A DNA stretch of 64,000 nt from Bacteroidales bacterium (GTDB taxonomy: Bacteria > Bacteroidota > Bacteroidia > Bacteroidales > UBA932), in the NCBI GenBank assembly GCA_028724885.1, contig JAQYTJ010000013.1:62001-126000 (forward strand). The letters are read 5' to 3'. Below the pieces are notes generated by a model. The model searched no databases. It had not been told where the DNA came from and saw only the letters and a list, made by a program, of their open reading frames with translations. The first letter of the stretch is position 1. Each line of letters begins with the position of its first letter. Positions 23,299-26,893 of the stretch are shown piece by piece. The position numbers were made by a program, and so were the translations under genes.

Positions 23299-23754
23299 CT
23301 ATTCATGCGACTCGAAGCGCTTTTGGGCAAGCACCTCATACTTAGTGCCTGGACGGCCATAATTAGCATAAGGGTATATGGATATGCCTCCGCGAGGGGT
23401 GAAGAAGCCTGTTACTTCAATATATTTAGGATCCATCAGCTTGACAAGATCCTTCATGATAGTGTTGACGCAGTCCTCATGGAAATCGCCGTGGTTACGG
23501 AAACTGAACAGATAGAGTTTCAAGCTCTTGCTTTCCACCATTCTGACATCAGGAATATAACTGATTCGTATTTCGGCGAAATCAGGCTGTCCGGTAATCG
23601 GACAGAGAGACGTGAACTCCGGGCAGTTGAACCTCACCCAATAGTCATTTCCTTTGTGCCTGTTCTCGAAAGTCTCGAGAACCTCGGGAGCATAATCCAT
23701 TTTATATTCAGTCTTGTGGCCCAGCTCCTTCAGGCCTTCATTAGTCCTATCCAT
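23299..23754 (-). CDS. queF: NADPH-dependent 7-cyano-7-deazaguanine reductase QueF
   Basis: [28 protein letters not shown]...[24 protein letters not shown]. Confidence 0.96.
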
Positions 23755-23763
23755 AATAATATA

Positions 23764-24441
23764 TTATATGTCTTTAATTTTAAAAGGATTATAAGAGATG
23801 TTCTCGTCGAATGCATCCTCGCCCTCTACTGCCTTGATTTTTCTAACCACGATATTAGTGATAGGTAATATGACAATTTCATAAAGGACCTTGAAAGAGA
23901 CTTGGCAGAGCATCATAACTGGCAGTTGACGTATTCCTGTACCCCAAAAGGCGATAGGCATGAACACTAACGAATCTAGGCACTCTCCAGCAATAGATGA
24001 AACGATTGCCCTCCATGAGAAGCCGCGGCCTTTCTGAGCCACTTTCATCCTGCTGAGGACAAAGGCATTAAGGGTAGAGCCTGCAAGAAATGCCAGTAGC
24101 GAGGCGAAAGTAACTCTAGGGGCCATATTGAACATATAGTCAAAGTGGGCTCCTCCATCCCAGAATGGAGCCGAAGGCAGCCAGACTACGATCTGACCAA
24201 CGACCACGACGAAAAAGTTCATCGCGAAGGCAGTCCATATGACAAGACGTGCCTTGCGATACCCCCAAACCTCCGCAAAGCAATCGTTCAATATGTATGA
24301 CACAGGGAAAATGATGACTGCGCCTGGCAGTGATATGTTTCCAATCGCAAATACTTTTGTAGCGAATAGGTTTGATGCTATGAGGCAGACCGTAAAAAGG
24401 ACTGCCATCAATAAAAATACAATAGAAAATTTTTGTTTCAT
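23764..24441 (-). CDS. Queuosine precursor transporter (YhhQ/QPTR family)
   Basis: 225 aa membrane protein; GAVIIFPVSYILNDCFAEVWGYRKARLVIW; directly upstream of queF. Confidence 0.9.
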   Translation of the reverse strand: MKQKFSIVFLLMAVLFTVCLIASNLFATKVFAIGNISLPGAVIIFPVSYILNDCFAEVWGYRKARLVIWTAFAMNFFVVVVGQIVVWLPSAPFWDGGAHFDYMFNMAPRVTFASLLAFLAGSTLNAFVLSRMKVAQKGRGFSWRAIVSSIAGECLDSLVFMPIAFWGTGIRQLPVMMLCQVSFKVLYEIVILPITNIVVRKIKAVEGEDAFDENISYNPFKIKDI

Positions 24442-24444
24442 TAT

Positions 24445-24474
24445 CTAGTTTTTTAAGAGGTTACCTAGTACTCT
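24445..24474 (-). promoter_or_regulatory. Candidate preQ1-I riboswitch aptamer
   Basis: Minus strand AGAG-UACUAGGUAAC-CUCU-UAAAAAACUAG-AUAAUG: P1 AGAG/CUCU, loop CUAG able to pair with tail CUAG (H-type pseudoknot), A-rich tail; next to the ATG of a queuosine-precursor transporter/queF operon. Confidence 0.72.
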
Positions 24475-24475
24475 A

Positions 24476-24493
24476 TGATGGGGCGCTGCCCCC
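24476..24493 (+). repeat. Direct repeat copy 1 (TGATGGGGCGCTGCCCCC)
   Basis: Same 18-mer recurs at 24586; contains GGGGC-GCT-GCCCC mini-hairpin. Confidence 0.85.
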
Positions 24494-24585
24494 TACTATC
24501 CCCCGCGGCTCACGGCCTTCTGGCATTCGCTTGGCTAATCGCCTCGCGGATGCCCGGCCTACGCCGGTCGCGTGACCGCGACTGC

Positions 24586-24604
24586 TGATGGGGCGCTGCC
24601 CCCC
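24586..24604 (+). repeat. Direct repeat copy 2 (TGATGGGGCGCTGCCCCCC)
   Basis: Same 18-mer as 24476, plus one C. Confidence 0.85.
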
Positions 24605-24610
24605 ATAACT

Positions 24611-25702
24611 TTATTCTCCGGCAGCCTTGAGACGCTCGGCGTTCTCGGCGATGGTGAGATGATCAATGCACTCCTGGATGTCACCGTCCATGAAACATGG
24701 AAGGTTGTACATGGACCAGTTAATGCGATGATCTGTCACACGTCCCTGCGGATAATTATAAGTGCGAATCTTAGCCGAACGGTCGCCAGTGGAGACCATA
24801 GTTTTACGCTTAGCCCCAATTTCGTCAAGATATTTCTGGTGTTCCAGGTTATACAGACGAGATCGCAATTCCTCGAAAGCCCTCTCCTTATTCTTGATTT
24901 GCGAACGTTCCTCTTGGCACTGCACTACCAAGCCAGTAGGAATATGTGTCAGACGAACAGCCGAATATGTCGTATTCACCCCTTGTCCGCCAGGACCCGA
25001 AGAGCAAAACAAATCTAGACGAATATCATCCCACTTCAGATCCACATCGAACTCACCTGCTTCAGGGAAAACAGCCACGGAAGCAGCAGAAGTCTGAATT
25101 CGGCCTTGAGTCTCAGTCTGTGGCACCCTCTGAACGCGATGCACCCCAGATTCATATTTCATGACGCCATAGACTCCATCAGTCGAAGAAGACAACTTGA
25201 AGACAATGCTCTTGAATCCACCTGCTGTGCCAGGATTCTCGTCATTCACTTCCAGCTTCCATCCACGATTCTCCGCAAACTTGGAATACATACGGAACAA
25301 ATCGCCCGCGAAAATAGCAGCCTCGTCACCACCCGTGCCTCCACGAATCTCGACGATTGCATTCTTGCTGTCGTCAGGATCGGCAGGGAGCAGCAGTATC
25401 TTTATCTGCTCTTCCATCTCAGGAAGCTTTGGCTCGATCTCGGCGAGCTCTTCTTTTGCCATATTCCTTAAATCCTCATCCTTCTCGTTCGCTAATATAT
25501 TCTTTGCCTCACTAAGTTCATCTACCTGTTTCTTATAATCTAAGCCAGCCTGGACGATAGGCTCAAGCTCCTTATAGTCCTTGCTGAGCTGGACGAATTT
25601 CTTCATATCCGATGTCACGGATGGGTCGGACAGCTGATTCTGAAGAGAAAGGTATTTATCCCGTAAAGCCAGGATTTTTTCTATTAATGTATTTTCTGCC
25701 AT
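24611..25702 (-). CDS. prfA: Peptide chain release factor 1
   Basis: 363 aa; GGTGGDEAAIFAGDLFRMY, GPGGQGVNTTYSAVRLTHIPTGLVV (GGQ). Confidence 0.97.
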   Translation of the reverse strand: MAENTLIEKILALRDKYLSLQNQLSDPSVTSDMKKFVQLSKDYKELEPIVQAGLDYKKQVDELSEAKNILANEKDEDLRNMAKEELAEIEPKLPEMEEQIKILLLPADPDDSKNAIVEIRGGTGGDEAAIFAGDLFRMYSKFAENRGWKLEVNDENPGTAGGFKSIVFKLSSSTDGVYGVMKYESGVHRVQRVPQTETQGRIQTSAASVAVFPEAGEFDVDLKWDDIRLDLFCSSGPGGQGVNTTYSAVRLTHIPTGLVVQCQEERSQIKNKERAFEELRSRLYNLEHQKYLDEIGAKRKTMVSTGDRSAKIRTYNYPQGRVTDHRINWSMYNLPCFMDGDIQECIDHLTIAENAERLKAAGE

Positions 25703-25724: not shown

Positions 25725-26846
25725 TTATTTAATATTCTTTACATAGCAGCGGCGCCGCATGTAAATTTCGTTGTTGTACTCGTGCCACACATTCACGGCA
25801 CTGTTCGTCTCAATCTGGGGATTAGTGATCGACCACTTGGCCCCCACATTCAAATATTTTTGCGCCATGGAGCAATGATAGATTGAAGATATTCCTTTAT
25901 TCTGCCATCCTGGCACCGCCCCATTAATCATAAGGTCAAGAGTCTTGTAGTCCCGCATTCCTCTCAAAAGATGAATCCAGCCGAAAGGGAAAAGTTTTCC
26001 TTTGCACTTCTGTAGAGACTCCGACATTGATGGGAAAGCAATCCCGAAAGCTACAAGCGCATTGTCCTCATCCAGCACGATTGAACTAATCTTGTCAGAG
26101 ACGAACTTCATCATGGACTTTCTCTCCTCTTCTATCTCCTCGTCGGTGAACGGTATGAAGTTGTACACGGCAGAAGCAAAGCTTTCGTTGTAGACTTTGA
26201 AGAAGTGATCCACCAGCTTCTTGTCTCTTTTCAGCTTGGAAATCTTCCCCTCATGCAAGTTGTAGCGCTGCTTTAACAACCCCGCTATCCTCTTCATCTT
26301 GTCCTGAACCCCCTGATCTGCAGGCAGCTTATACTGAAGCCAGTCGCACTCTTTGACGAAGCCAAGCTTAGTCACCAAGTCATTGTAATAAGGATAGTTG
26401 TAGAGGCAATTAAATGGCGGGACGTTCTCGAAACCTTCCACAAGCATTCCCTGCTTGCCAAGCGTATTGTAGTATAGAGGGCCATGAATCTCGGTCATCC
26501 CATTCTCTTTCGCCCAAGCCTCAGCAGTGCCTATCAGCAGTTTAGCCACCTCCAAGTCATCGATGAGGTCGAACCAGCCAAATCTTGCCCTCTTCTTATT
26601 GTACAGCTCGTTGTAGCGAGGATTGATCATTCCACAGATTCGTCCCACGACATTCTTTCCCTCCTTTACCAGCCACATCTTTCTCTTGCAGTAAGACAGG
26701 GTTGATGTCTTCGTAAGCGAGAAAACCTGATCTGCATGCAACGCCGGAACATACTGAGGGCATCCCTTATATAGTTTATCAGGGAATTTGATGAACTCCA
26801 TCAATTCCTTTTTTGTTTGTACTTCGACTAACTTGTATTCCGACAT
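25725..26846 (-). CDS. GNAT-like acetyltransferase family protein
   Basis: Likely start MSEYKLVEVQTKKELMEFIKFP; VVGRICGMINPRYNE...RFGWFDLIDD...MTEIHGPLYYNTLGKQGMLVEGF. Confidence 0.65.
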   Translation of the reverse strand: MSEYKLVEVQTKKELMEFIKFPDKLYKGCPQYVPALHADQVFSLTKTSTLSYCKRKMWLVKEGKNVVGRICGMINPRYNELYNKKRARFGWFDLIDDLEVAKLLIGTAEAWAKENGMTEIHGPLYYNTLGKQGMLVEGFENVPPFNCLYNYPYYNDLVTKLGFVKECDWLQYKLPADQGVQDKMKRIAGLLKQRYNLHEGKISKLKRDKKLVDHFFKVYNESFASAVYNFIPFTDEEIEEERKSMMKFVSDKISSIVLDEDNALVAFGIAFPSMSESLQKCKGKLFPFGWIHLLRGMRDYKTLDLMINGAVPGWQNKGISSIYHCSMAQKYLNVGAKWSITNPQIETNSAVNVWHEYNNEIYMRRRCYVKNIK

Positions 26847-26885
26847 CAGTTTCGCTGACAATTATCCTTAATTACAACCGAATTG

Positions 26886-26893
26886 CAAATTTA
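26886..26893 (-). promoter_or_regulatory. -7 element TAAATTTG for GNAT-like gene
   Basis: + strand CAAATTTA upstream of 26846. Confidence 0.45.

Follow-up and report, generated by a model that had tools for sequence, protein, structure and literature searches.

The 30-nt element that lies directly upstream of yhhQ is, with high confidence, a class I, type II preQ1 riboswitch that controls the translation of yhhQ and probably of queF too. A preQ1-I riboswitch had been proposed at this site by a sequence-only reading, and the identification is supported by sequence comparison. Class I preQ1 riboswitches were already known in Bacteroidota (PMC11625349), as was the control of yhhQ by preQ1 riboswitches (PMC5372724). 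New here are a Bacteroidales group that Rfam misses and an expression platform that is free of a Shine-Dalgarno (SD) motif. The features in the window (the whole stretch of 64,000 nt that was analysed) are as follows, in the order of transcription.

26886..26893, minus strand: candidate Bacteroidales-type promoter -7 element (TAAATTTG), from the pattern TAnnTTTG, ahead of the gene upstream of prfA
24611..25702, minus strand: prfA (release factor 1), the gene upstream of the switch (NF001859, 492 bits; synteny in relatives)
24445..24474, minus strand: preQ1-I (type II) aptamer core, 30 nt (direct reading, held-out covariance models and covariation in both helices)
24474-24471/24459-24456, minus strand: P1 (AGAG/CUCU), 4 bp (direct reading)
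24470-24469, minus strand: L1 (UA) (direct reading)
24468-24465/24448-24445, minus strand: P2 (CUAG/CUAG) (direct reading)
24464-24460, minus strand: L2 (GUAAC), with C24460 as the predicted specificity base
24455-24449, minus strand: L3 (UAAAAAA) (direct reading)
24439..24455, minus strand: expression platform, with the A-tract (-13 to -8), the P2 3' strand (-7 to -4), the AUA spacer and the yhhQ AUG (direct reading; leader statistics)
23764..24441, minus strand: yhhQ, queuosine precursor (preQ0/preQ1) transporter, 225 aa (PF02592, TIGR00697)
23299..23754, minus strand: queF, preQ0 reductase (preQ1 synthase), 151 aa (PF14489, TIGR03139)

Read on the minus strand from 24474 to 24445, the core consists of AGAG, UA, CUAG, GUAAC, CUCU, UAAAAAA and CUAG, followed by AUA and AUG. 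Its architecture is an H-type pseudoknot, and 3 bases separate it from the yhhQ start codon (24441-24439). Type II aptamers carry AC before the 3' strand of P1 (P1'), and the C is the specificity base (PMC11625349). The window has this AC (GUAAC-CUCU), together with a P1 hairpin, the loop of which forms P2 with the A-rich 3' tail, a uridine opening L1 (U24470), an A-rich L3 running into the C of the P2 3' strand (UAAAAAA-C), and a position in the leader of queuosine transport and synthesis genes (yhhQ-queF). Type I elements have UC before the P1 3' strand and UU atop the 5' strand, where the window has AC and UA. Type III elements are marked by a UU motif, a short pyrimidine-rich loop and an AAGG tail, where the window has the loop UACUAGGUAAC and the tail CUAG.

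The window was compared part by part with the queC aptamer of B. subtilis (Bsu, AGAGGUUCUAGCUACACCCUCUAUAAAAAACUAA; PMC8494917, PMC10639078) and the aptamer of Thermoanaerobacter tengcongensis (Tte, CUGGGUCGCAGUAACCCCAGUUAACAAAACAAGGG; PMC10639078), both class I type II. The comparison was made by hand because a MAFFT alignment with the two sequences misplaces P1'. Both known aptamers have a P1 of 5 bp, an L1 of 2 nt, a P2 of 4, an L2 of 5 (Bsu) or 3 nt (Tte) plus C, and an L3 of 8 or 9 nt (PMC8494917, PMC10639078). The corresponding values in the window are 4 for P1, 2 for L1, 4 for P2, 4 plus C for L2 and 7 for L3. Bsu shares with the window the H-type topology, the 2-nt L1, a P2 5' strand CUAG that pairs with CUA in the tail, the AC before P1' and an A-rich L3 that runs straight into the C of P2, whereas both L2 and L3 of the window are shorter by 1 nt. 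Bsu acts by transcription termination, while the window element abuts a start codon. Tte has the same fold and the same GUAAC-C segment, a likeness that the sequence-only reading had pointed out. It also acts on translation, the start codon following closely on its P2 3' strand, and its CAAG tail is found in relatives of the window. In contrast, what Tte hides is the start of a Shine-Dalgarno (AAGG), which the window does not have; the element hidden here would be the A-tract. That P1 has only 4 bp, where the aptamers of B. subtilis and Thermoanaerobacter have 5, was counted against the riboswitch reading. So were the low Rfam score, the lack of a stable fold in the free strand, the orthologous leaders without the element and the queC leaders with a distant one, all described below. 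The type III riboswitch of E. coli yhhQ (PMC10622847) serves the same transporter family (COG1738), is translational and has AC before P1', but differs in the UU at the top of P1, the short pyrimidine-rich loop and the buried AAGG Shine-Dalgarno. Type III riboswitches are almost confined to proteobacteria (PMC10622847).

The genes behind the switch are a YhhQ-family transporter and then QueF, as the sequence-only reading had it. The yhhQ product scores 156 bits with PF02592 and 95.7 bits with TIGR00697 (cut-off 50.95), and the queF product, a QueF-II preQ1 synthase, scores 173 bits with TIGR03139 (cut-off 86.9). The gap between the two genes is 9 nt. The genome contains tgt and two QueA-family genes (G000 contigs C11:127131-128168 and C8:19977-21152). 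QueD was not found in the genome, and the sole QueC-family match, a 26-bit candidate, was rejected as argininosuccinate synthase. With no queD and no true queC, the organism probably has to salvage the precursor, relying on YhhQ to obtain preQ0 or preQ1, with QueF making preQ1 from imported preQ0, and repression of the importer and the reductase by preQ1 is coherent with such salvage.

The same aptamer might instead respond in the cell to preQ0, or to both preQ0 and preQ1, so that the switch monitors the imported precursor. preQ0 is what the operon brings in and what QueF uses up, E. coli YhhQ transports preQ0 (PMC5372724), the preference of the Thermoanaerobacter type II aptamer for preQ1 is only about 17-fold (PMC10622847), and in a genome without queC and queD preQ0 comes solely from outside. 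We nevertheless consider this unlikely, since preQ1, which QueF produces, is preferred by the class I aptamers that have been characterised (PMC11625349, PMC10622847), and end-product feedback is the most straightforward scheme.

No Shine-Dalgarno motif is present in the yhhQ leader of the window. Among 96 riboswitch leaders, an SD-like motif occurs in one, and in 93 the distance from the P2 3' end to the start codon is 2-6 nt (mode 4). The window's own genes carry SD-like motifs in 4 of 47 cases, versus 2.7 in shuffled sequence, and such a near-background level is expected for Bacteroidota (PMC6847099, PMC7366714). In the SD-less Flavobacterium F. johnsoniae, initiation is stronger when positions -12 and -13 hold adenines (PMC6847099). 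Adenine occupies -11, -12 and -13 in 96%, 92% and 78% of the riboswitch leaders; in the window's genes it occupies -12 and -13 in 49% and 45%. The -12/-13 adenines of the leaders are the L3 adenines. In known structures, L3 adenines contact the P1 groove and the ligand. As the initiation region and the ligand-contact strand coincide, ligand binding should hide the initiation element.

Translational control had been judged likely because the tail abuts the AUG. It is now very likely, favoured both by a start codon only 2-6 nt away and by the intercistronic position after prfA. Class I type II riboswitches can also act on transcription, by ligand-dependent termination or pausing, the B. subtilis queC switch (Bsu) being an example (PMC10639078). 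We give such transcriptional control only a small chance at this site, since the core ends 3 nt from the AUG and the 2-6 nt gap of nearly all the leaders is too short to hold a terminator hairpin with a U-run, and no terminator is apparent at the start of the yhhQ reading frame.

For translational control, the following mechanism is proposed. At low preQ1, the A-rich strand and the P2 3' strand would be single-stranded, and the ribosome would initiate on yhhQ. At high preQ1, the ligand would lie between P1 and P2, paired with C24460, the A-tract would dock in the P1 groove and P2 (CUAG/CUAG) would close. With about -33 to -4 folded, the 30S subunit could not engage the start codon, and preQ0/preQ1 import and preQ0 reduction would be switched off. 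The A-tract would then have a double role, as the ligand-contact strand of the aptamer and as the ribosome-recruiting element that replaces the Shine-Dalgarno in Bacteroidota. Most likely, preQ1 folds the ribosome-recruiting A-tract into the pseudoknot and thereby blocks initiation. We lean slightly towards a broader reading, that of a Bacteroidales-wide preQ1-I subgroup with SD-free translational control, in which the L3 adenines are the A-tract (about -14 to -11) hidden by the ligand, and a switch placed between operon genes, after prfA, controls only the downstream ones. Riboswitches in SD-less mRNAs were named as an open challenge in a 2024 review (PMC11625349). The group would offer many small natural cases, with a fixed spacing of 2-6 nt and a built-in A-tract, of an SD-free initiation block by a metabolite-bound pseudoknot.

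The search with the Rfam preQ1-I model, which the sequence-only reading had put forward as a check, gave an insignificant score. A scan of the window with the Rfam library returned nothing above any gathering score, and on a 57-base stretch with the site RF00522 (PreQ1) reached 11.9 bits (E 1.6), against a gathering cut-off of 39 bits that is a detection threshold and not a structural feature. The RF00522 alignment of the site misplaces P1 at AGG/CCU, where the true P1 is AGAG/CUCU. In the whole genome, RF00522 gave no match at E <= 0.001, while a control search of B. subtilis was positive. Among 20 relatives with clear motifs there was no preQ1 match above the cut-off, two relatives searched on short stretches gave none even at E 10, and the RF00522 cut-off was passed in 0 of 393 Bacteroidales genomes. 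Because relatives with clear motifs are missed as well, the low score reflects a limitation of RF00522 in this group. RF00522 models the same riboswitch class and its tail consensus AUAAAAAACUAA agrees with the tail of the window, although the site scores below its cut-off. Rfam-based annotation of Bacteroidales therefore misses a common queuosine riboswitch, and reports on gut and rumen communities probably understate how much queuosine regulation occurs there.

Since Rfam misses the site, covariance models were built from the family itself. Two held-out models, trained on 23 relatives with the window and the copy closest to it set aside, gave the site 40.6 bits (E 8.7e-9) and 41.8 bits, and the next-best candidates in the window 10.1 and 11.1 bits. 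In the whole 2.74-Mb genome the site was the sole significant match (40.6 bits, E 3.8e-7; runner-up 16.9 bits, E 1.2); these E-values are rough.

Conservation upstream of the orthologous transporter, another check named for the proposal, came out decisively in its favour. With yhhQ orthologues from 150 genomes of the family and from named genomes, the motif was found just before the yhhQ start codon in 49 of 56 Bacteroidales loci (L010 and L055 being one and the same record), and both helices show compensatory changes. P1 appears in these leaders as AGUG/CACU, AGAG/CUCU and CGUG/CACG, and P2 as CUUG/CAAG, CUAG/CUAG, CCAG/CUGG and CAG/CUG. In L032 and L039, whose proteins are 96-97% identical to that of the window, both helices are nevertheless changed in a compensatory way. 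In L011-L013 a P1 of 6 bp occurs together with an L3 of 11-12 nt, the two being lengthened jointly because the fold requires it. Some orthologous leaders have lost the switch. In L005 (upstream of position 632) P1 and the A-tract are kept and the P2 3' strand is now poly-A, and in the yhhQ leaders of L008 and L019-L023 the motif was not found, L020 showing a partial one with an odd loop.

The covariation was quantified on 25 distinct cores. Standard pairs made up 95% (79.3% in shuffles), both sides were changed in 26 cells (8.1 in shuffles), and the covariation score was 0.337 (0.105 in shuffles), a value reached in 0 of 500 shuffles. With the partners shifted by one to three columns, the score was 0.052 or less. 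The outermost P2 position is unpaired in 10 of the 25 cores. The AGAG/CUCU stem and the CUAG/CUAG pseudoknot with the A-rich tail were correctly read, and P1 and P2 both pair and covary across orthologues. Order-wide, P1 is paired in all 61 distinct cores, and P2 takes the forms CUUG/CAAG, CUAG/CUAG, CCAG/CUGG, ACAG/CUGU and AUUG/CAAU. AC stands before P1' in 60 of the 61 and C in 61, the parsing script having required the C and not the A. The first base of L1 is U in 61/61, a count to which the site finder contributed by demanding this uridine, as the covariance-model search did not. AAAAA or UAAAA precedes the C of the P2 3' strand in 61/61.

Another conserved leader structure, such as the operator of an RNA-binding protein, could have evolved beside queuosine genes and be no preQ1 aptamer. 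The insignificant Rfam score would fit this, and preQ1 binding is deduced from sequence comparison. It is very improbable, since the element agrees part by part with the solved Bsu and Tte aptamers, in topology, loop lengths, the AC, the L1 uridine and the A-rich L3, and the gene associations are those of preQ1 riboswitches. Chance resemblance within an A+T-rich spacer, for which the short helices and a single-strand fold no better than shuffles could be cited, has a negligible probability and is already refuted by the conservation in orthologues, the 40.6 bits of the held-out model, the covariation at 61 distinct cores and the 0.15 descriptor matches expected.

That descriptor is a loose one for the pseudoknot (helices, spacings, C before P1' and a linker ending in AAA). 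It gave 2 matches on both strands of the window, at the core and at 6092-6064, and the expected 0.15 is for a random 64-kb sequence with the same dinucleotide make-up. Single-strand folding of the core (z +0.84) comes from a thermodynamic method that cannot model a pseudoknot and is uninformative here. As the free strand has no stable fold, folding must rely on the ligand and on tertiary contacts.

The site belongs to a Bacteroidales-wide preQ1-I group. The family-built model found the motif in 55 of 393 sampled Bacteroidales genomes. Of 55 order-wide matches inspected, all outside the set used to build the model, 44 precede yhhQ, 7 queC and 1 queD, so that 52 stand before queuosine genes. The other three (L097, L117 and L118) have no queuosine gene, and two of them are among the weakest matches. 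L097 (G277:C26:20688-20716) is a 34-bit match, AGUGGAGCAGAAACCACUAUAAAAACUGA, that lies 65 nt before a small membrane-protein gene and has no L1 uridine; it is either chance or a variant. In L079, L084, L088, L089 and L106 the aptamer lies about 70-190 nt before queC and does not abut the start codon, so another expression platform (a long leader, a small ORF or attenuation) must act there. A phylum-wide draw gave matches in 3 of 396 genomes, all Bacteroidales, with filters so strict and a model so narrow that absence outside Bacteroidales cannot be read from it.

The simplest reading of the operon is one transcript with regulation limited to yhhQ-queF. The candidate promoter at 26893 could mark where the transcript with yhhQ-queF begins. 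One further TAnnTTTG match lies inside prfA (25017), and none was found in the window between prfA and the switch. In L003, L033 and other relatives, TAnnTTTG-like promoters stand directly before the switch. The distance from the prfA stop to the riboswitch is 136 nt in the window and 11-62 nt in L048, L040 and L002, the 11 nt being that of L048.

The gene before prfA is an ORF of 378 aa (window 25725-26861, minus strand) whose synteny is kept in relatives. No Pfam or NCBIfam model matches it; by eye it resembles GNAT acyltransferases. The prfA-yhhQ spacer (window 24476-24603, minus strand) contains a repeated element of ~110 nt, with GGGGGCAGCGCCCC palindromes at its bounds. This REP/BIME-like repeat is also found at G000:C7:31094-31217 and in L150-L152, L031, L032 and L039, and the GGGGGCAGCGCCCC palindrome occurs 7 times in the genome versus 0 in the reversed control. 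Close relatives carry 1-3 copies of the repeat in the prfA-yhhQ spacer, and the riboswitch is left intact.
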